A DNA stretch of 64,000 nt from Chlorops oryzae (lineage: Eukaryota; Arthropoda; Insecta; Diptera; Chloropidae): positions 63,661,587 to 63,725,586 of the forward strand of contig CM035806.1 in assembly GCA_020466095.1 (NCBI GenBank), read 5' to 3'. Numbering within the stretch: position 1 is the first letter of the stretch; each line of letters begins with the position of its first letter. A program made the translations under genes and the position numbers. Under the pieces are notes generated by a model. The model saw only the letters and a list, made by a program, of their open reading frames with translations, was not told where the DNA came from and made no database searches. Shown here in pieces: positions 3,357 through 53,632 of this stretch.

Positions 3357-4206
3357 AAGGGTGTTATAGTCAGGCGAGCCTGACAATAGAATACCCGAGA
3401 CAGATACACATGTTCAAATAATTTTTAATATCAAGAGGTGTTTAAGGCCATAAGTGGCCTCATATACCGACTTTTGTTAAATTTCTTTATGAAAACCGTC
3501 CCCTTTTGCCACGCCCACTTTTCCAATTCTTTTGAATTCTATTCGGAGGATTAAATAAACGCTCAACTTCTATGTTTAATTGAAATATTTCGAAAAAATC
3601 CGATTTTGGGGCACTTTTGAGATTTTTGTGACAGACCCTAGTACTGGAGGTATCCTTAATAATGGACCTATCAAGGAAATTTTTGGAGAGGATGTTACTG
3701 GCTACAGAACAGGCATAAATCCCAAATTTCGTTCAAGTCCCATTTGAATATCGGGTGTAGGAGACAATATTCGAAAAGCGCCTTTCTGTCACGCCCACTT
3801 TTCCAATTTTTTTAAATCATATTACTTGCCTTTAAACTTGCTCAAATACCAAATTTAATCAAAATATCTTGAAAAACTTAGATTTTACAGCAGCTTTTGT
3901 GGTTTTCGTAATAGACCCTAGTACTGGAGGTACCCCTAAAAATGGTCCGATCGGGTCCATTCTCGAACTTAATCTTACTCATGTCACCGTGAGGAGCACG
4001 CATACCGTTTTTCGTCAGGAGAGCTAAATTTCTTCGATAAGAAAACTGTATACAGACAGACGGACGGACATGGCTAAATCGAATCTCCTGGTGACGCTGA
4101 TCATTTCAATATATATTTTATATAGTCTATCTCCACTGGTTTTGGGTGTTACACACAACCACACAAACGCAATATACCCTCGACACAGAGTGTATCGGGT
4201 ATAAAA
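3351..4206 (-). mobile_element. Family A element, near full length
   Basis: It begins with ACAAGTAAGGGTGTTATAGT and the hairpin GTCAGGCGAGCCTGAC, and ends with CGACACAGAGTGTATCGGGT then ATAAAAA. Both internal blocks are present. The microsatellite is short (ACAGACAGACGGACGGACA). Confidence 0.8.
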
Positions 4207-6630: not shown

Positions 6631-7210
6631 TAGATATTTTCGATACAAGTGTCGAAATGAAGCTGTTTTTTGCACGAGTGGTAAATGTTGTAAAACGAGG
6701 CGCAGCCGAGTTTTACAATACCACGAGTGCGAAAAAAGCTGATTTTCGACACGAGTGCCGAACAATATTTTATGCAATGAGATTTCAAACTAGATTTTAA
6801 CCTAAATTTAAGAAAACGTTTTTTTTGTGAAGAAAATTTTTATTTTTATTTGACACATTCATAATTTGAAATTCTTTATTATACAACTTCGTAGTATGCT
6901 CTGCTTATTTTTGCCTTGTATTTTTTGAAATGCGTGCATTTTGAAATTTATTATTGCACACCTTGCCTTGTATTTTTTGAAATGCGTGCGTTTTGAAATT
7001 TATTATTGCACACCTTGCCTTGTATTTTTTGAAATGCGTGCGTTTGAAATTTATTATTGCACGCTTTGAAATTCATTACAAACCCTGGTAGTATGCCATG
7101 CTTTTTGTTTGTTTTAAAATTTTTTTTTATACTTTCTCAAATCTAGTGTCATAATATGCTTCATTATGATTTTAAAATCGACATCATAATAGGCCTATTA
7201 CGATGTCGAA
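6631..7210. mobile_element. Insertion in right arm of the palindrome, with 52-bp tandem repeat
   Basis: This segment has no counterpart in the left arm. Its left part folds on itself (GAAGCTGTTTTTTGCACGAG against CTCGTGGTATTG and CGAAAAAAGCTGATTTTCG). It contains a 52-bp tandem repeat (6911-7063). The end repeats are not clear enough to assign a superfamily. Confidence 0.5.
6911..7063. repeat. 52-bp tandem repeat, about 3 units
   Basis: Units start at 6911, 6963 and 7015, each beginning TTGCCTTGTATTTTTTGAAA and ending TTATTATTGCAC. The units differ by only one or two bases. Confidence 0.9.
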
Positions 7211-8844: not shown

Positions 8845-9314
8845 AAAATAATTTCAACAAGTAAGGGTGTTATAGTCAGGCGAGCCTGACAATAGAATAC
8901 CCGATACAGACACACATCTTCAAATAAATTTTAATATCAGGAGTTGTTTAAGGCCATAGGGGCCCCATATACCGACTTTTGTTAAATTTCCTAAATATAC
9001 GCACAAATTCTAAGTTTCATTGAAATATTTGGAAAAAGTCAGATTTTGGGGCAGTTTTGAGATTTTTGTGACAGACCCTAGTACTGGAGGTACCCTTAAT
9101 AATGGACCGATCCAGGAAATTTTTGGGCAGAATGTTTATGGCTACAAAGGAAGTATAAGTGCCAATTTTCGTTCAAGTCCCATAGGCGTTTCGGGAGTAG
9201 GAGACAATTTTCGAAAAACGCCCTTCTGCCACGCCCATTTTTCTAATTTTTGTAAATCACATTAATTGGCCTAAAATATGTTCAAATGTCAAATTTCATC
9301 AAAATATCTTGTAA

Positions 9315-10071: not shown

Positions 10072-12008
10072 TTATACCCGACACACTCTGTGTCAAGGGT
10101 ATATTGCGTTTGTGTGGTTGTGTGTAACACCCAGAACCAGTCGAGATAGACCATACAAAATGTATATAGAAATGATCAGCGTCACCAGGAGATTCGATTT
10201 AGCGATGTCCGTCCGTCTGTCCGTCTGTATATCCGTCTGTCTGTTTGTATACAGTTATCTTATCGAAGGAGTTGAGCTATCTCGAGAATGGACCCGATCG
10301 GACCATTTTTAGGGATACCTCCAGTACTAGAGTCTGTTACGAAAATCACAAAAACTGCTCTTAAAGCGAAGTTTTTCAAGATATTTTGATGAAATTTGAT
10401 AGTTGAACATATTTGAAGTCAATTTATTCAATTTCAAAACATTGGAAAAGTGGGCGTGGCCGAAGGGCGTTTTTCAAAACTTGCCTCCTATACCCGAATT
10501 TCAAATGGGACTTGAACGAAATTTGGCAGTTATGCTTCCTTTGTAGCCATAAACATCCTCTCCAAAAAATTTTTTGATAGGTCCATTATTAAGGGTACCT
10601 CCAGTACTAGCCCAAGTAGCAAAATAGGTCGAAAATTGGTAAATTCTTACCTATATTAGGTCAGAATATTTACTTGACCTAACCTAAATAGGTCGAAATT
10701 ACGTCGATTCGACGTCGAGTCGACGTAAGTGGGGAATAGATTGGAAGTCGATTGGCGGTAATAATAGGTCATAATAGGGCATTTCGACTTCAAAGTCAGG
10801 GCGAAAAGAAGTCCGTTTACCTAATATTAGTCGAAAAGAAGTCGCAATGACCAATTTTCGACCTAATTGGACTTATGAGTAAAACGAAAGAGAACGTAAA
10901 AGGAAACGAAAAAAGTGAGAGAGAGAGTAACAGAGAAAGATATAAATACATAATATCTTACTCAGTCATTCGTATTACTCGAAAGCAGAAATGAACGAGA
11001 GATTTTCTTCTTCGTGTGTCTTAAGAAATAAATAATAAATAAAATATGGACTTCATTAAAAATTATTTTGCGCTTAATAAGTCCCAAAAACATATGCCCG
11101 CTGAGATTTTTCGTGAAAGTGTTCCTTCTACTTCTTCATTTTTAAGGGGCTTTCTCATTGATGGAAATTAAATAAATATTGCTTGAAAAAAATTGTTTTT
11201 CTTAAAGAAAAAACATATGCAGAAGAATAATTCTCAATTTGCCATTCGAAAAATATGGCGGAGCTCGACCTATTTTGACTTATTTCGACTTTAAAGTCAA
11301 ACCGACTATGAAGTCCAAAAATCAAGTCCGCTCGACTTTGAAGTCGAAGCATGCAACAAAATAAGTCAACTTTTGACCCTATTTCGCCCTATAAGTCAAA
11401 CGGACTTTAAAGTCGAATTTTAGTCAAAAAATTGGTCTGTTTGCCTTGAAAAATTACCTAATTTGGAATTCAAAGTTAAGTCAATTTTAAGTCACTCAAT
11501 AGGGAATTTTTTACCTATTTTCGACCAAAAATCGACTTGGAAGTCGAAGCGACTTTGAAGTCATGAAATAGGTAGAATAGAGGTAATTTGGACCTTCGAA
11601 ACGGACTTTTAAGTTAGGTCATATTTAAGGCCGGAAAATAGGTCAGAAATAGGGTATTTTCAACCAAAATAGGTCGATTCGACTTGCTGCTGGTCGAATC
11701 GCTCTATTTTGCTGCTTGGGAGGGTCTGTCACAAAAATCTCAAAACTGCCCCAAAACCGGATTTTTTTGAGATATTTTACTGAAACTTAGAATTTGAACG
11801 TATATTAAGGCCTCCGATTAGAAAACAAAAAAATGGGAAAAGTGGGCGTGGCAAAAGGGCGGTTTTCATAAAGAAGTTCAATAAAAGTCGGTATATGGGG
11901 CCCCTAATGGCCTTAAACACCACTTGATATTAAAAATTATTTGAAGATGTTAGTCTGTGTCGGGTATTTTATTGTCAGGCTCGCCTGAATATAACACCCT
12001 TACTTGTT
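10072..12008 (+). mobile_element. Family A element split by a 1.1-kb insertion
   Basis: Starts TATACCCGACACACTCTGTG and ends with GTCAGGCTCGCCTGA then ATAACACCCTTACTTGT. The 10611-11720 element interrupts CCAGTACTAGGGTCTGTC. Both internal blocks are present on either side of it. Confidence 0.8.
10611..11720 (+). mobile_element. 1.1-kb AAGTCG/TAGGTC-motif element, copy 1
   Basis: Ends CCCAAGTAGCAAAATAGGTC and, complementing the right end, CCCAAGCAGCAAAATAGAGC. The flanking site implies a 2-bp AG duplication (10609-10610 and 11721-11722). Both outer thirds are built from interspersed TAGGTCGAAA, GACTTCAAAGTC and GACTTTGAAGTC words. The middle third is ordinary AT-rich DNA with a GAGAGAGAG tract. 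There is no transposase ORF. The class is unknown to me. The near-identical copy 2 lies inverted at 12135-13253. Confidence 0.75.
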
Positions 12009-12110
12009 TCTATATATATTTTGTATGGTCTATCTTGACTGGTTCTGGGTGTTACATACAACCACACAAACGCAATATACCCTCGACACAGAGTGTGTCG
12101 AGTATAAAAA
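12009..12110 (-). mobile_element. Family A 5'-end fragment
   Basis: Complement of the first roughly 100 bp of family A, ending CGACACAGAGTGTGTCGAGT then ATAAAAA. It directly abuts the 3' end of the preceding copy. Confidence 0.75.
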
Positions 12111-12134
12111 TGCATCAACATATTACATGTGTAT

Positions 12135-13253
12135 CCCAAGCAGCAAAATAGAGCGATTCGACCAGCAGCAAGTCGAATCGACCTATTTTGGTTGAAAATA
12201 CCCTATTTCTGACCTATTTTCCGGCCTTAAATATGACCTAACTTAAAAGTCCGTTTCGAAGGTCCAAATTACCTCTATTCTACCTATTTCATGACTTCAA
12301 AGTCGCTTCGACTTCCAAGTCGATTTTTGGTCGAAAATAGGTAAAAAATTCCCTATTGAGTGACTTAAAATTGACTTAACTTTGAATTCCAAATTAGGTA
12401 ATTTTTCAAGGCAAACAGACCAATTTTTTGACTAAAATTCGACTTTAAAGTCCGTTTGACTTATAGGGCGAAATAGGGTCAAAAGTTGACTTATTTTGTT
12501 GCATGCTTCGACTTCAAAGTCGAGCGGACTTGATTTTTGGACTTCATAGTCGGTTTGACTTTAAAGTCGAAATAGGTCAAAATAGGTCGAGCTCCGCCAT
12601 GTTTTTCGAATGGCAAATTGAGAATTATTCTTCTGCATATGTTTTTTCTTTAAGAAAAACAATTTTTTCAAGCAATATTTATTTAATTTCCATCAATGAG
12701 AAAGCCCCTTAAAAATGAAGAAGTAGAAGGAACACTTTCACGAAAAATCTCAGCGGGCATATGTTTTTGGGACTTATTAAGCGCAAAATAATTTTTAATG
12801 AAGTCCATATTTTATTTATTATTTATTTCTTAAGACACACGAAGAAGAAAATCTCTCGTTCATTTCTGCTTTCGAGTAATACGAATGACTGAGTAAGATA
12901 TTATGTATTTATATCTTTCTCTGTTACTCTCTCTCTCACTTTTTTCGTTTCCTTTTACGTTCTCTTTCGTTTTACTCATAAGTCCAATTAGGTCGAAAAT
13001 TGGTCATTGCGACTTCTTTTCGACTAATATTAGGTAAACGGACTTCTTTTCGCCCTGACTTTGAAGTCGAAATGCCCTATTATGACCTATTATTACCGCC
13101 AATCGACTTCCAATCTATTCCCCACTTACGTCGACTCGACGTCGAATCGACGTAATTTCGACCTATTTAGGTTAGGTCAAGTAAATATTCTGACCTAATA
13201 TAGGTAAGAATTTACCAATTTTCGACCTATTTTGCTACTTGGGATATAGCTTA
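12135..13253 (-). mobile_element. 1.1-kb AAGTCG/TAGGTC-motif element, copy 2
   Basis: Reverse complement of 10611-11720 with very few differences, the most obvious being a few single-base changes and a 9-bp size difference. Flanks read GTGTAT and ATATAG, giving a 2-bp AT duplication (or TA with one more base in the end repeat). The different flanks from copy 1 show an independent insertion and not a segmental inversion. Confidence 0.75.
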
Positions 13254-14954: not shown

Positions 14955-15600
14955 CTAATCCTAAGTTTTATTGAAATATTTCGAAAAAATCCGATTTTGG
15001 GGCACTTTTGAGATTTTTGTGACAGACCCTAGTACTGGAGGTACCCTTAATAATGGACCGACCAAAAAAATGTGGGGAGGATGTTTGTGGCTACAAACGA
15101 GGCATAAGTGCCAAATTACGTTCAAGTCACATTTGAATTTCGGGTGTAGGAGAGAATTTTCGAAAAACGCCCTTCTCCCACGCCCACTTTTCCAATTTTT
15201 TGAATTCATAGTAATTGCCTTTAAACATGTTCAAATACCAAATTTCATCAAAATATCTTGAAAAATTTCGATTTTAGAACAGTTTTTGTGATTTTCGTAA
15301 CCGACCCTAGTACTGGAGGTACCTCTAAAAATTGTCCGATCGGGTCCACTCTAGAACTTGTTCTTACTCATGTCCCCGTGAGCACACATACCAAATTTTG
15401 TCGAGATAACTCAACTCCTTCGATAAGAAAACTGTATACAAACAGACGGACAGACAGACGGACATGGCTAAATCGAATCTCCTGGTGACGCTGATCACTT
15501 CTATATATATTTTGTATGGTCTATCTCGACTGGTTCTGGGTGTTACAAACAACCACACAACCGCAATATACCCTTGACACAGAGTGTGTCGGGTATAAAA
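14955..15600 (-). mobile_element. Family A element, 3' truncated
   Basis: Complement from the second internal block to the complete 5' end (GTGTGTCGGGTATAAAAA). The hairpin end is missing. The microsatellite is only about 20 bp. Confidence 0.75.
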
Positions 15601-20812: not shown

Positions 20813-22105
20813 ACAGGTTGGCTGATAAGTCCCCGGTCTGACACATAGATGGCGTCGCTAGTATTAAATGCATATTATTTTTATATAGTGGCAACCTTCA
20901 AATGATTCGTGTCAAAATTTGACGTCTGTAAGTCAATTAGTTTGTGAGATAGAGCGTCTTTTGTGAAGCAACTTTTGTTATTGTGAAAAAAATGGAAAAA
21001 AAGGAATTTCGTGTTTTGATAAAATACTGTTTTCTGAAGGGAAAAAATACAGTGGAAGCAAAAACTTGGCATAATAATGAGTTTCCGGACTCTGCCCCAG
21101 GAAAATCAACAATAATTGATTGGTATGCAAAATTCAAGCGTGGTGAAATGAGCACGGAGGACGGTGAACGCAGTGGACGTCCGAAAGAGGTGGTTACCGA
21201 CGAAAACATCAAAAAAATTCACAAAATGATTTTGAATGACCGTAAAATGAAGTTGATCGAGATAGCAGAGGCCTTAAAGATATCAAAGGAACGTGTTGGT
21301 CATTTCATTCATCAATATTTGGATATGAAAAAGCTCTGTGCAAAATGGGTGCCGCGCGAGCTCACATTTGACCAAAAACAACAACGTGTTGATGATTCTG
21401 AGCGGTGTTTGCAGCTGTTAACTCGCAATACACCCGAGTTTTTGCGTCGATATATGACAATGGATGAAACATGGCTCCATCACTACACTTCTGAGTCCAA
21501 TCGACAGTCGGCTGAGTGGACAGCGATCGGTGAACCGTCTCCGAAGCGTGGAAAGACTCAAAAGTCCGCTGGCAAAGTAATGGCCTCTGTTTTTTGGGAT
21601 GGGCATGGAATAATTTTTATCGATTATCTTGAGAAGGGAAAAACCATCAACAGTGACTATTATATGTCGTTATTGGAGCGTTTGAAGGTCGAAATCGTGG
21701 CAAAACGGCCCCATATGAAGAAGAAAAAAGTGTTGTTCCACCAAGACAACGCACCGTGCCACAAGTCATTGAGAACGATGGCAAAAATTCATGAATTAGG
21801 CTTCGAATTGCTTCCCCACCCACCGTAGTCTCCAGATCTGGCCCCTAGCGACTTTTTCTTGTTCTCAGACCTCAAAAGGATGCTCGCAGGGAAAAAATTT
21901 GGCTGCAATGAAGAGGTGATCGCCGAAACTGAGGCCTATTTTGAGGCAAAACCGAAGGAGTACTACCAAAATGGTATCAAAAAATTGGAAGGTCGTTATA
22001 ATCGATGTATCGCTCTTGAAGGGAACTATGTTGAATAATAAAAACGAATTTCGACAAAAAAATGTGTTTTACTTTGTTAGACCGGGGACTTATCAGCCAA
22101 CCTGT
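20813..22105 (+). mobile_element. irritans-subfamily mariner element (Himar1-like)
   Basis: The 1,293-bp element has 27-bp perfect terminal inverted repeats (20813-20839 and 22079-22105, starting ACAGGTTGGCTGATAAGTCC) and the TA duplication at 20811-20812 and 22106-22107. The ends and encoded protein match what I recall of Himar1 from the horn fly almost base for base, so it is a young copy. The ends appear intact, so it could be moved by a transposase supplied in trans, but its own gene is broken. Confidence 0.95.
20992..22038 (+). pseudogene. mariner transposase, 348 codons with one internal stop
   Basis: Mariner transposases cut and paste the element at TA sites. The frame from ATG 20992 (MEKKEF; chosen over an ATG 9 bp upstream because Himar1-type proteins start here) covers two helix-turn-helix regions, the WVPREL linker motif (residues 119-124), the first catalytic Asp in MDETW (D158) and the second in HQDNAPCHK (D252). 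Codon 279 is TAG (21826-21828) where relatives have Tyr before SPDLAPSD. After it the frame stays open to TAA at 22036-22038 and includes the third catalytic Asp (D287). The natural length is the family's 348 residues. As it stands the product lacks the third Asp and is inactive. Confidence 0.95.
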
Positions 22106-26489: not shown

Positions 26490-26530
26490 GGCAGAGAGAG
26501 TGCGAGCGAGAGAGACCCGGAAAGAGAGAA

Positions 26531-26584
<54 letters not shown>

Positions 26585-26602
26585 GAGAGAGAGAGAGTGA
26601 GC
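26490..26602. repeat. GA-rich purine tract
   Basis: Mostly GAGAGA with rare interruptions. Confidence 0.9.
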
Positions 26603-27640
26603 ATGAAAGTGGGAGAAGAGCGCGGGGTGTAGAGTTTGGTTTAATGTAAATTTTTTGCGGTTTTAAAGTTTGTTTACATCTCTGAGGTTTTCGTTTTCTC
26701 TTTTTTATATTATTATTATTATTTTATTATTACTACATATAACAAAAGTATAAACAGTTAGACCCCCACATCCAGTATGGGGTCAATTATTTGCAGTAAA
26801 ATATCGTGGGTTCATTTTTCACTCTTCAATCTGATACTTTTTTTTATGTCGGACTGGAGTCTTTAGAGAAAAAAAAAGGTGAACACCTAAAAATTAATTT
26901 CCTTTGTGATCTGATGTTCGCGGATAGGAGTGTTTACATTGCTTTCACAAAATTCCATTACTTTTCCGTTAGTTTACTATTGATTTTGTTTGGTCATTTA
27001 AATCTGTAACAAATAACTTACTTGATCTACATCTGAACCAAAAAGAATTTTTTTTTTTTTTTTTCATTTTATTAATTATATGCATAGCTATGTTATTTAT
27101 AATTTTTCGTTAAGAGATCAGGCTGAGCAATCAGTTCTTTCCTTAAGGTTTCCAACCTTAGAGATAAAGATAAAGGCAATTGCTAACATTTCCTTTACTT
27201 CCGAATGGCATCTTTATATTTCTCTATAGGAGAAAATCGTTTCTCAACTCAACGCAATTAAAAGTGGTATAATGAAAAAAAAAAAAAACAATAACAAACT
27301 TTAATCATCCTTAAACTTTATTCCCACTTCCTTCAATGACAAATATAATACGATAAATATACTTGACATTTAAGAGGAAAATAAAATTTTGTGCAGCAAT
27401 AAACAGAATAAAAAGAATAAACAAAAAGAGGAAGCAGGAAAACAAGGAGAAAACGTTGTCTCTTGCAAATTTTGTTGCATTTGGGGCACAGAATTTCTGG
27501 CGAAATTGTGCAAATACTTGTCTTCGTTCAAAACTTTTTGAGTAGATGAAAATTATTGGACCGGAATATTGCCGAGACTGAAAAATGAGAAATCGACAAA
27601 AAATTAAACTTTTTTGCAGTCGAAATTGAAAAGGGTACAT
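26603..27640. other. Unique AT-rich DNA
   Basis: Homopolymer T and A runs at about 27047 and 27270. No gene supported. Confidence 0.4.
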
Positions 27641-27901
27641 ATAGGGGAGAGAGAAACAGATAGACAGAGAGAGAGAGAGAGAGACAGAAAAAGAGAGAGA
27701 GACAGAAAAAGAGAGAGAGACAGAAAAAGAGAGAGAGAGACAGAAAAAGAGAGAGAGAGACAGAAAAAGAGAGAGAGAGACAGAGAGAGATAGGCAGAGA
27801 GAGATAGAAAGAGAGACAGAGATAGAAAGAGAGACAGAGCGAGAAGATAGACAGACACAGAGAGAGATAGACAGACACAGAGAGAGATAGACAGATAGAC
27901 A

Positions 27902-27971
<70 letters not shown>

Positions 27972-28288
27972 TCGAGAGAGACGGATAGAAAAAAGGGATA
28001 GAGAGACGGATAGATAGACGGATAGAGATAGAGATGGATAGAGATAGAGCTAGAGAAAGAGCTACAGAGAGAGAGCTAGAGAGAGGGGTTGAGAAATAGA
28101 TAGAGAGTGATAATGAGAGCGTAATGGGGAGAAAGAGAAAGGGTGTGATATGGAGAGTTAGAGTGCGGAAAGAGAGAAATAGAGTGGAGTAAGAGATTGA
28201 TAGAGATAGAGATAGATAGAGATAGATAGAGCAAGAGAGATAGATAAAGAGAGCTACTAAAGAGCCAGATAAAGAGAGCGAAAGGGAA
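27641..28288. repeat. About 650-bp purine-only GA/GATA/GACA satellite-like tract
   Basis: Nested short periodicities (GAGAGAGACAGAAAAA, GATAGACAGACACAGA, GATAGAGATAGA) with almost no pyrimidine apart from T in GATA and C in GACA. The Ser/Leu-rich open frames on the other strand reflect this composition. Confidence 0.95.
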
Positions 28289-32056: not shown

Positions 32057-32458
32057 AGAAAGAGAGAAAAAGGGAGAGAGAGAGAGAGGGAGGGAGAGGG
32101 TGGGAGAGAGAGAGATAGGGAGAGAGAGAGAGGGAGAGCGAGAGGGAGAGCGAGTGGGAGAGTGAGTGGGAGAGTGAGTGGAGAGTGGGAGAGAGAGAGG
32201 GTGAGAGAGGGTGAGAGAGAGGGTGAGACAGAGGGAGAGACAGAGGGAGAGAGAGAGGGAGAGATAGAGGGAGAGAGAGATGGTGAGAGAGAGAGGGGGA
32301 GAGGGAGGGAGAGAGAGAGATAAAGAGATAAAGAGAAATATAAAAAGAGATAAAGAGAAATAGAAAGAAATAGATAGAAATAGATTGAAATAGATAGAAA
32401 TAGATAGAAGATAGACAGAAGATAGACAGAAGATAGACAGAAGATAGACAGAAGATAG
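32057..32458. repeat. GA-rich purine tract
   Basis: GAGAGGGAGAGAG grading into GAAATAGATAGAAATAGATA and GATAGACAGAA units, followed by a short TA-rich stretch to about 32500. Confidence 0.95.
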
Positions 32459-32576
32459 AAATATATATAATATTATATATATATATATAATATATAAAAA
32501 CTTAGCTTTAAAGCAGGATAACTAAAAATATTTCCAAAAATTTGTGGTTCTAATATTCAGTCAGATATCCTTTTCG

Positions 32577-37398: not shown

Positions 37399-38002
37399 AC
37401 TCCTCTTTTCTTCTTCTCTCTCGCTCGCTCTTTATTTCTCACTCTCTATTTCTCGCTCCCTCTTTCTCCTGTTCTCTCTTTCTTGCCGTGTCTCCGTCTC
37501 GCCTTATCTATTTCTCGCGTTCTTTCTCTCGCTCTCTCTTTAACCCTCTCTATGTCTCTCTTTCTTTCGCACTTGATTTCTTTGCCTAGCGTTGTCTGTG
37601 CTACTCTCTCGCTCGCTCTTAATATATCGCTCTCTCTCTCTCTTGCTCTCTCACTCTCTTTACCGCTCTCTGATACTCTCTCTTGTTCTCTCGTTATCTT
37701 GCTCTCCCACAATCTATACCACTCTCTGACACTCTCTCTCGTTCTCTTTCTCTCTCTTTATTTCTCTTTTCTCTCTTTCTCTCTTTCTCTCTTTCTCTTC
37801 TCTCTTTCTCTCTTTCTCTCTTTCTCTCTTTCTCTCTTTCTCTTCTTCTTTTCTTCTCTCTCTCTTCTCTCTTTCTCTTCTCTCTTTCTCTCTTCTCTCT
37901 TTCTCTCTCTTCTCTCTTCTCTCTCTTTCTCTCTCTTCTCTCTTCTCTCTCTTTCTCTCTTTCTCTCTTCTTCTCTCTCCTTTTCTCTCTCTCTTTCTCT
38001 CT

Positions 38003-38034
<32 letters not shown>

Positions 38035-38272
38035 TCTTCCTCGTTTCTCTCTTTCTCTCTTCTCTTTCTCTCTCTCTGCTTCTCTCTTTCTCTCTTCTCT
38101 CTTTCTTCTTCTCTCTCTCTCTCTCTTCTCTCTCTTTCTCTTCTCTCTCTCTTCTCTGTCTCACTCGTCTCCTTTTCTGCTCTCTCTGCATTGCTCTTCA
38201 TCTTCTTCTCCTCCTCTTCTCATCTCTCTTTCTCTCTGCGCACTCTCTCTCTCTCTTTCTCTGGCTCTTTCG
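37399..38272. repeat. About 870-bp polypyrimidine (CT-rich) tract
   Basis: Nearly continuous CTCTCT/TTTCTCTCT, more ordered in the centre (37740-38160). Apparent proteins of 218-306 residues (Ser/Leu/Phe) on + and Arg/Glu on - are translations of this tract. Confidence 0.95.
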
Positions 38273-41251: not shown

Positions 41252-41815
41252 GTAAGTTCCAAATAAAAATTTTAATCAAGAGATTTGTTTGAAAAAGAAA
41301 AGATAAATTTTATTGATTCATGATAATGATGATGGTGATGGTGATGATGATCTGTAATTGAATCATTGAAGCAAAAATTGAAGAAACGAACATTTCGATT
41401 CTTGACGCGATGACCGAGTGAATTTATTGTCTGCTCCATCCTAACATACCTACATATTCCATTGGAATTGTCCCGCTGTCAAAAGCGGAAAGAAATTTAC
41501 TGTTCGATTTTGCATGGTTAGGCCTTGACCTAGTCTGTCCAATCAATTGAATAATGATTGGGACCGCTTTTTTCTCTCACATTTACTATAATTCAAAATG
41601 TTCATTATGTATTTATTATAAGAATTTCAAAAAATAGTCATATTAAATCTTCCCAACAAATTTGGTTGAACTTATTCGCAAAGATTTCAGAGTAACGGAG
41701 CTCGGAAGTACATTTACTCGTTTAAAATTCTAAGCCTTAAACGACGTCACTTTCTATTCTCTCAGTTCTTTTGCTTTTTACGCTACAATTACTTTCGACA
41801 ATATAATTTCAACTA
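41252..41815 (+). other. Likely start of a long intron
   Basis: Begins with the GTAAGTTCC donor and continues as non-coding DNA with a GATGATGGTGATG stretch near 41327-41352. No acceptor followed by an open frame is evident nearby. Confidence 0.4.
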
Positions 41816-42235
41816 ACATAACATAACATAACATAACATAACATAACATAACATAACATAACATAACATAACATAACATAACATAACATAAACATAACAT
41901 AACATAACATAATAACATAACATAACATAACATAACATAACATAACATCATAACATAACATAACATAACATAACATAACATAACATAACATAACATAACA
42001 TAACATAACACATAACATAACATAACATAAATAACATAACATAACATAACATAACATAACATAACATAACATAACATAACATAACATAACATAAACATAA
42101 CATAACATAACATAACATAACATAACATAACATAACATAACATAACATAACATAACATAACATAACATAACATAACATAACATAACATAACATAACAATA
42201 ACATAACATAACATAACATAACATAACATAAAACA
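41816..42235. repeat. (ATAAC)n pentanucleotide array, about 420 bp
   Basis: More than 80 near-perfect ATAAC (CATAA) units with occasional one- to three-base slips. It joins a family A fragment at 42236, where the GACA/GTCY microsatellite region of that family normally lies. The MLCYVML frames on the minus strand are translations of the array. Confidence 0.97.
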
Positions 42236-51049: not shown

Positions 51050-51593
51050 GAGAGGAAAATTAGAGTCAAATAAATAAAGGCAAATAAAGGAAAATAAACG
51101 AAAATAAAGGAAAATAGAGGAAAGTAGAGGAAAATACAGGAAAGAGAGGTAGGGAATGAAAGGAATATAAAGGGTCAGATTAAGGGAGTGGGTGAGAAAG
51201 GGAGAGAGAGGGTGACAGAGGGAGCGAGAGGGGGAGAGAGAGGGTGACAGAGAGGGTGACAGAGGGAGCGAGAGGGGGAGAGAGGGAGAGAGAGGGAGAG
51301 AGAGGGAGAGAGTGGGAGAGAGTGGGAGAGAGGAGAAGAGGAGAGAGTGAGGAGAGAAGAGGAGAAGGAGAGATGAGAGAGAGGAAGATGAGAGGGAGAG
51401 AGAGGGAGAGAGAGGGAGAGAGAGGAGAGAGAGAGGAGAGAGAGAGGGAGAGAGAGGGAGAGAGAGGGAGAGAGAGGGAGAGAGAGAGAGAGGAGAGGAG
51501 AGAGGGAGAGAGGAGAGAGAGAGAGGAGAGAGGAGAGAGGAGAGAGAGAGAGAGGAGAGAGAGAGGGGAAGAAGGGAGACAGAGGGAGACAGA

Positions 51594-51629
<36 letters not shown>

Positions 51630-51735
51630 AAAGAGAGAGAGAAGAAGAGAGAATGACAGAGAGGGAGAGAGAGAGAGAAGAATAGAGAGGAGATTCAGAG
51701 GAGATTTAGAGGAGATATAGAGGAGTCATAGAGGG
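51050..51735. repeat. Purine-rich GA tract, left part
   Basis: AAATAAAGGAAA units grade into GAGAGGGAGAGA. The 158-residue Arg/Glu-rich frame is a translation of it. Confidence 0.95.
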
Positions 51736-51743
51736 ATATAGTA

Positions 51744-52624
51744 GGGGAGAAGTGGCATGAAAGAGCCAGTTTACTAAACAGAGCAAAAAAACATGCTTTT
51801 AATGAAAAATATGATGATTTTTCGTTTTCGTATTATTATTTATTTAATAAAGCAGGTAATTGCATACCAAAAAAACTTAAAAACTATATAAAACTTAAAA
51901 AAATATTCATTTTAAAAAAAGGTAACATTCGGCTCTTTCATAACTGGTCGGTATTGAAAGAGCCACTGAAAGTTATGAAAGAGCCAGTATGTAAAAAATA
52001 AATGTGCACTGTTTAAAAAAAAAAAGACAATTCTGTCAACGTTCAATATGTCGTATATGTCAATATGTAGATAACAATTAAATTTTTCCCAACAATAAAA
52101 TTCTGACGTGATGGAATTATTTTTGGTAATTTTTAATTCTTCAACAGACCAAGTCACATAATTAAGCAAAAAAACGAATCCACCGTGCAGGGTAATGAAA
52201 GAGCCGGCTATGAAAGAGCCGGCTCTTTCAACGCCTTTTCACTCGGCTCTTTCATAACTTATTCTTGAAAATCACATAACCTACAAAATAACAACAATAT
52301 CAAAAGTTTTGCGGCTCTGTTTTTACGGAGTTGCAACACCAAATATATGCACAAACTTAATCTGCAATCAATGTAACTATATAAATTCACAATAAAATAC
52401 CAAAAAAGAAATTAAATGAAACAAAATATTTACTTTTCAATGCCAAAAACTTTGAGTCGCTGCACTTGCGCTTGTTGATTTCGACGAACTGTCAAATTTT
52501 TATGGGTAACGGGATATCCGTGCTGCCACTTGAAAAATTAATTACCGACCAAATCCGTTGGTAATCTACCGAAATAATGCAAGTGGCTCTTTCAAAACCT
52601 GGCTCTTTCATGCCACTTCTCCCC
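51744..52624. mobile_element. 881-bp TA-flanked element with dispersed GAAAGAGCC motif
   Basis: Ends GGGGAGAAGTGGCATGAAAG match exactly in inverted orientation and continue as AGCCAG. TA lies at 51742-51743 and 52625-52626. GAAAGAGCC or its complement GGCTCTTTC occurs about ten times, including the palindrome GAAAGAGCCGGCTCTTTC at about 52206-52230. No transposase ORF. It splits a GA-rich tract. Confidence 0.8.
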
Positions 52625-52626
52625 TA

Positions 52627-53632
<1,006 letters not shown>

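Follow-up and report, generated by a model that had tools for sequence, protein, structure and literature searches.

Two inverted copies of a young, probably TRC-type non-autonomous transposon in the genome of Chlorops oryzae

Introduction

Animal TRC elements, a branch of the CACTA/EnSpm (CMC) superfamily, start with CCC and are flanked by 2-bp direct repeats, the latter seen in 7/14 of the SmTRC1 copies analysed (PMC1636069), and the combination of CCC with a 2-bp duplication was used to place the element Spongebob in the same branch (PMC4298943). The wider clade is marked by CxxC and H(3-4)H motifs and by duplications of 2-5 bp (PMC12730594). Plant CACTA elements carry repeated direct and inverted subterminal motifs that are bound by TNPA-like proteins (PMC2613891), and in the passages cited here such arrays are given as a feature of plant CACTA elements and not as a TRC criterion. 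Here we describe two inverted 1.1-kb elements, copies A and B of what we call family I, in a stretch of 64,000 bp of the fly Chlorops oryzae (the window; contig CM035806.1, hereafter C1, positions 63661587-63725586, of a 442 Mb assembly in 1044 contigs). As judged from sequence, A and B are very probably recent insertions of a non-autonomous cut-and-paste transposon of the TRC branch.

Family I shares CCC ends and 2-bp duplications with the TRC elements SmTRC1 and those of Tribolium and Aedes, and the host genome also contains Transposase_21 genes; the Tribolium TRC end CCCTAGTAGCA differs from family I by one mismatch in the first 11 bases (10/11 identical). The published TRC elements, however, encode a transposase and measure ~4.5-9.2 kb, whereas family I has 1.1 kb and only a 41-aa open frame (PMC1636069). 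Spongebob (EnSpm-4N1_HM and its insect relatives), which is present in 441 copies in Hydra, likewise has CCC ends and 2-bp duplications and is assigned to TRC/CACTA, but differs in its end sequence CCCAGCCAACATTGAC and in its length of 5836 bp in Hydra (PMC4298943). With the plant elements En/Spm and Tgmt*, family I has in common the asymmetric subterminal direct and inverted motifs and stem-loops, with more of them in the right border; Tgmt* differs by its CACTA ends, 3-bp duplication and another motif sequence, and binding to the family I motif is putative (PMC2613891). ISL2EU (PHIS) also makes 2-bp duplications, but these are AT only and its ends are usually GG (PMC4482050). The first-pass annotation had placed the two elements in no known class and was not aware of any family of such a design; as CCC ends with 2-bp duplications are published for animal TRC elements (PMC1636069, PMC4298943), the claim of a new transposon class does not hold. 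In the literature, neither terminal 17-mer occurs in the papers matched by a text search, as judged from the absence of a shorter 10-mer among the top-ranked matches, and a word search found no paper that combines five of six terms for a non-autonomous miniature inverted-repeat transposable element (MITE) of TRC/CACTA/EnSpm type in a fly.

Results and Discussion

The two copies in the window

Copy A spans 1110 bp (10611..11720, forward strand), as delimited by blastn, alignment and the copies elsewhere in the genome, and copy B spans 1109 bp in inverted orientation (12135..13243, reverse strand). They are 99.7% identical, with 3 differences consisting of one A in an A-run and two T/C changes, so that the near-identical inverted pair reported in the first-pass annotation was recovered, with the end of the second copy placed at 13243, 10 bases before the 13253 given there. 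The terminal inverted repeats of A read CCCAAGTAGCAAAATAG on the left (10611..10627, forward strand) and CCCAAGCAGCAAAATAG on the right (11704..11720, reverse strand). Direct reading of the flanks gave the target duplication AG on both sides of A (10609..10610 and 11721..11722) and AT on both sides of B (12133..12134 and 13244..13245), as had been noted before. Because the duplications differ, A and B arrived separately, and we read the inverted pair as the result of two insertion events independent of each other. The distinct duplications and distinct flanks also argue against a single copy misassembled as two.

Copies across the genome, target duplications and age

A genome-wide search with the element gave 1538 first-look DNA candidates, and the best 40, which were scored, all match element positions 1-1110 at 99-100%. 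The exact 17-bp end occurs 392 times in forward and 401 times in reverse orientation, as against 0 for the reversed control, and the copy number in the genome is several hundred. Among the first 100 ends listed (C1:1-39.5 Mb), 82 form 41 pairs and 18 are single; 39 of the 41 pairs span 1050-1130 bp and the other 2 are longer through nested insertions. The longer stretches L076 (2655 bp) and L077 (1500 bp) were considered as autonomous relatives and rejected, being ordinary copies with a nested element that makes an 8-bp duplication (L plus a number labels a genome stretch examined, and positions such as L102:1212-1397 count within that stretch). Nine single ends were probed with 400-bp stretches, by which L084, L085, L086, L088, L089, L090 and L092 proved to be family copies (94-99%). 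L087 holds a relative that has diverged, and L091 a copy that has either diverged or undergone deletion. Another six single ends lie in L050, L051, L052, L059, L068 and L069; of these, L051 is reduced to 161 bp of the right end (86%), and the match of L050 covers positions 1-927 only. The three remaining ones are parts of the copies L030, L040 and L041. Five IMG/VR stretches with one exact terminal 17-mer each were taken as chance by a rough estimate.

Target duplications were counted in 52 distinct full-length copies, 41 from the best-scoring sample (the window pair included) and 11 from the end-pattern sample, after exclusion of truncated, nested and repeated copies and of rows whose flanks were shorter than 20 bases. 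Identical 2-bp flanks were found in 48/52 copies (39/41 and 9/11 in the two samples), while offset controls gave 2, 4, 5 and 5 of 52 and a three-base match occurred in 1/52. The duplications comprise 13 dinucleotide types (TT 8, TA 7, AG 6, AT 6, GA 4, AA 4, TC 3, TG 2, GT 2, CT 2, AC 2, GC 1 and CC 1), that is, the element makes a 2-bp duplication without a fixed target. The genome search for these ends and the alignment of many flanks, both proposed in the first-pass annotation, thus returned consistent termini and a consistent duplication length; therefore the lack of such consistency, named there as evidence that would tell against the elements, was not observed.

In the 41-copy sample, which is biased toward the best scores, each copy carries 0-4 substitutions relative to the consensus and a single variant is common to at least 3 copies (position 990, 37:4), and the 11 end-pattern copies are on average 1.0% diverged (median 0.72%). 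The window copies are close to this consensus, A with 2 substitutions and B with 1 gap. An empty site was found for A: its flanks joined with one AG align without gaps across the junction to several window paralogs of the host repeat, examples among the matches listed being 3696-3583 (93% over 114 bp) and 1457-1571 (90%), and these paralogs hold a single AG at the insertion point. No empty site for B was present among the matches listed. The earlier proposal that the two copies transposed separately and recently is thus backed by the differing 2-bp duplications, the near-consensus sequences and the empty site for A. MITE-like non-autonomous elements are short, uniform in length, numerous and devoid of coding capacity, and family I fits this description by the narrow span of its end pairs and by a 41-aa frame that shows no purifying selection (see below).

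The host repeat that A entered is dispersed (window 10581-10610, with paralogs at 1457-1571, 3583-3696, 9023-9137 and 14974-15086), with the insertion point at CAGTACTAG/GGTCTGTC. The same point is occupied in 4/52 family I copies, A included, and in the family II copy L102 described below, which reflects either a target preference or else the spread of one occupied repeat. Two further family I copies, L052 and L061, have ~1.3% substitutions yet 31-32 small gaps, possibly as assembly noise.

Anatomy of the element

The subterminal regions contain repeated motifs in both orientations. The left domain (10611..10870, forward strand) holds TAGGTC and TCGAC words in both orientations, and the right domain (11261..11720, forward strand) holds 19 GACTT/AAGTC words, as against 5 in the left domain and 2 in the core. 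When palindrome coverage was compared with 200 dinucleotide shuffles per region, the left 260 bp reached 0.32 against a shuffle mean of 0.07 (0/200 shuffles) and the right 460 bp reached 0.26 against 0.09 (1/200), and no palindrome excess was seen in the 390-bp core, where 70/200 shuffles reach the observed value. The word GACTTNNAAGTC is found 6 times in copy A, at 10786..10797 and at sites starting at 11287, 11334, 11403, 11534 and 11551, and is absent both from the remaining 61367 bp of the window and from every one of 300 shuffles of copy A. Similarly, TAGGTCGAAA occurs 3 times in A on either strand (shuffles: mean 0.01, maximum 1) and 0 times in the rest of the window. The palindromic richness of the outer parts described earlier is thus real, but the word GACTTNAAGTC quoted for it is found 0 times in A, the actual motif being GACTTNNAAGTC. 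A hairpin with 19-nt arms and a 9-nt loop adjoins the right end (11665..11711; z -6.0 for 11660-11720). The Rfam scan of the window at gathering thresholds gave no match.

The interior contains a putative TATA-like box TATAAATA (10941..10948, forward strand), read directly and followed by an aligned block that recurs in the L082 piece of family II, a 41-aa open frame (11046..11171, forward strand) and AATAAA at 11171-11176. The changes in this frame across the 52 copies were 16 nonsynonymous, 1 synonymous and 3 stop, as compared with 282:76:20 for all possible single changes, and relative to the family II frames the nonsynonymous and synonymous changes were 21:5 for L099 and 24:4 for L103; because of these ratios, no purifying selection on the frame is visible. 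Its best Pfam match is a sub-threshold glycosyl hydrolase (E 0.098) and no Pfam transposase was matched, nor was a homolog found among candidates of ~330-1050 aa. A transposase remnant was considered and rejected in view of the lack of a Pfam transposase, of any match in 120 TRC proteins and of purifying selection. With only this frame, family I does not encode the Transposase_21 protein of an autonomous TRC/CACTA element.

Older relatives of the element

Two families, II (L102) and III (L093), are older relatives with ends like those of family I. Family II (L098, L099, L102, L103 and the piece in L082) is 74-80% identical to A; L098, L099 and L102 match A at 1-652 and again from 693 on, with ~520-690 bp of extra interior between, and L103 was examined for its first part only. 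The complete copy L102 measures 1763 bp, has the ends CCCAACTAGCAAAATAG and CCCAACAAGCAAAATAG and is flanked by the duplication AG. A search with the L082 piece gave matches at 86-100% for the best 40 of 1196 candidates. The TATA-like box and the conserved block after it are common to A and the L082 piece and much weaker in L093. Family III (L093 and also L100 and L101) aligns with A blockwise, at 81%, 72% and 86%, and is flanked by the duplication TC; L093 is 3359 bp long including a nested mariner and ~2.1 kb without it. Although longer than family I, L102 and L093 likewise lack a transposase.

The 818-bp stretch L093:929-1747 has at least 60 matches across the genome (best 40 of 385 candidates scored) and recurs in the same order in L100, L101 and L103, so that it is either nested in the family III copies or part of their interior. 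In the interior of family II, a 61-aa open frame (L102:1212-1397) was observed, which is altered in L099 after its first part. The frame presumably resembles the start of DUF4806-type proteins, but Pfam and protein searches of the frame gave nothing; the TRC homolog P0043 carries DUF4806. The window itself holds a mariner transposase frame (Transposase_1) at 20953-21828, shorter than the similar 352-aa frame at L093:2283-3341.

TRC transposase genes in the genome

The profile search with PF02992 (Transposase_21), in which all 21/21 candidates were scored and 14 control genomes were run alongside, found matches at 9 places in this genome and in 0/14 of the controls. Around each of these places 5.4-7 kb was examined (L078-L082 and L094-L097). 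L079 and L096 are both copies of a single TRC family; they have the ends CCCAGCAAG and the duplications CC and AA, respectively, and are 98.9-99.7% alike over L079:350-4647 and L096:50-4183. L079 contains a transposase frame of 640 aa and another frame of 104 aa. The genome thus holds a candidate TRC transposase in an element with CCC ends and 2-bp duplications. The same TRC sequence was observed at L078:3025-6612 with its ends missing, lying between 36-bp inverted repeats (2664-2699 and 6670-6705), and looks captured within another element.

L082, L095 and L097 represent another TRC family, in which the sequence at one limit of homology, taken as an end, is CCCAGTGGAG. L082 was considered as an autonomous copy, since a 74% relative lies beside its TRC gene, and was rejected: comparison with L095 and L097 puts the end of the gene at ~L082:3788, and the gene and the family II piece are therefore separate neighbours. 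End-like matches with 4 mismatches at some of the PF02992 loci were taken as chance.

By eye, the D, D, CxxC and HxxxH residues are present in 4/4 aligned transposase frames and the E in three, L081 stopping before it. The L080 protein has 1390 homologs (7993 candidates scored, best 120 listed) and its frame matches a transposase entry of D. pseudoobscura at 39% (E 2.6e-122). Among the matches listed, the best named ones are from flies (Zeugodacus, Hermetia, Haematobia, Lucilia, Bactrocera and others) and the lower ones are beetle, dragonfly, Hydra and vertebrate-labelled entries.

Superfamily assignment and alternative explanations

Since no partner with identical ends was found in the stretches examined, the TRC assignment rests on the ends, the duplications and the genomic context, from which we infer the superfamily, the identity of the acting transposase and the role of the motifs. 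The asymmetric subterminal arrays, known from plant CACTA elements, and the similar ends of families II and III also speak for it. A TRC transposase produced elsewhere in the genome most probably acts in trans on the CCC...GGG ends, and excision and insertion with a 2-bp stagger would leave the 2-bp duplications. The subterminal GACTT/AAGTC and TAGGTC words are putative binding sites of the transposase or of a helper protein, by analogy with TNPA on plant CACTA elements. Several observations weigh against this assignment. No transposase gene bounded by CCCAAGYAGC ends was found within the stretches around 9/9 PF02992 places, the family II and III loci match none of the 120 TRC proteins, and L079, the clearest TRC element, is without comparable subterminal arrays. 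Matching flanks are absent in 4/52 copies, and the termini of the wider clade are described as mostly CA..TG (PMC12730594), whereas those of family I are CCC..GGG.

The same missing transposase-bearing relative, both near the PF02992 places and in the family II and III loci, would be expected if an undescribed superfamily moved these elements and their CCC ends and 2-bp duplications were convergent with TRC. We consider this unlikely, as CCC, an unspecific 2-bp duplication and a Tribolium-like end are all shared with TRC elements, and this genome holds genes for TRC transposases. It is quite unlikely, too, that families I, II and III are moved by a transposase of an undescribed superfamily or an undescribed CMC sub-branch that uses palindromic GACTTNNAAGTC arrays; if they were, the core of families I and II, which looks transcribed with its TATA-like box, 41-aa frame and AATAAA, would make a product acting on transposition. 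Another known superfamily with 2-bp duplications, namely ISL2EU (AT), Tc1/mariner or PHISTA/ESTA (TA) or Plavaka, shares the duplication length and is very unlikely on account of the targets and ends. Tc1/mariner duplications are TA, which makes up only 7/48 of the duplications of family I. ISL2EU duplications are 5'-AT-3' (PMC4482050), as in copy B, but AT accounts for only 6/48, and ISL2EU ends usually start with GG (PMC4482050), whereas family I starts with CCC, as it also does in contrast to the ends TGT of PlavakaA and CATCA of PlavakaB (PMC12730594). Neither ISL2EU nor the groups that insert at TA thus fit family I.

The arrangement of A and B bears on a further explanation, that the pair is retained as a functional hairpin or small interfering RNA locus. 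A transcript spanning both copies could geometrically form a 1.1-kb hairpin, with arms 99.7% identical and the 414-nt spacer (11721..12134) as its loop. Under random insertion with 450 copies assumed, only 0.09 inverted neighbours with a gap of at most 414 bp are expected genome-wide, so that the closeness of the pair is somewhat unusual, which also counts against a reading of two chance insertions. However, the target duplications differ and hence the copies arrived separately, and the first 100 ends listed include a second close inverted pair, ~2.3 kb apart, at C1:21.23 Mb; within 2.3 kb, 0.5 inverted neighbours are expected on the same assumption. A retained hairpin locus is accordingly highly improbable, and the differing duplications account for the pair as two independent insertions.

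As insertions of a TRC-type element, A and B would represent a young, high-copy insect family of CACTA elements for which the ends (CCCAAGYAGCAAAATAG) and the duplication length are known exactly and candidate binding sites are mapped. With such a family it becomes testable in the animal CACTA branch by which transposase a given end is recognised, and whether subterminal arrays have the importance that they have in plants.

Other repeats in the window

Long purine-rich (or pyrimidine-rich) arrays were observed at 26493-28264, 32061-32459, 37424-38262 and 51186-53622, with a GC skew of up to 0.5. About 90 copies of AGAGGAGATAG occupy 52666-53622, and a (TAACA)n array of ~84 units lies at 41814-42231.

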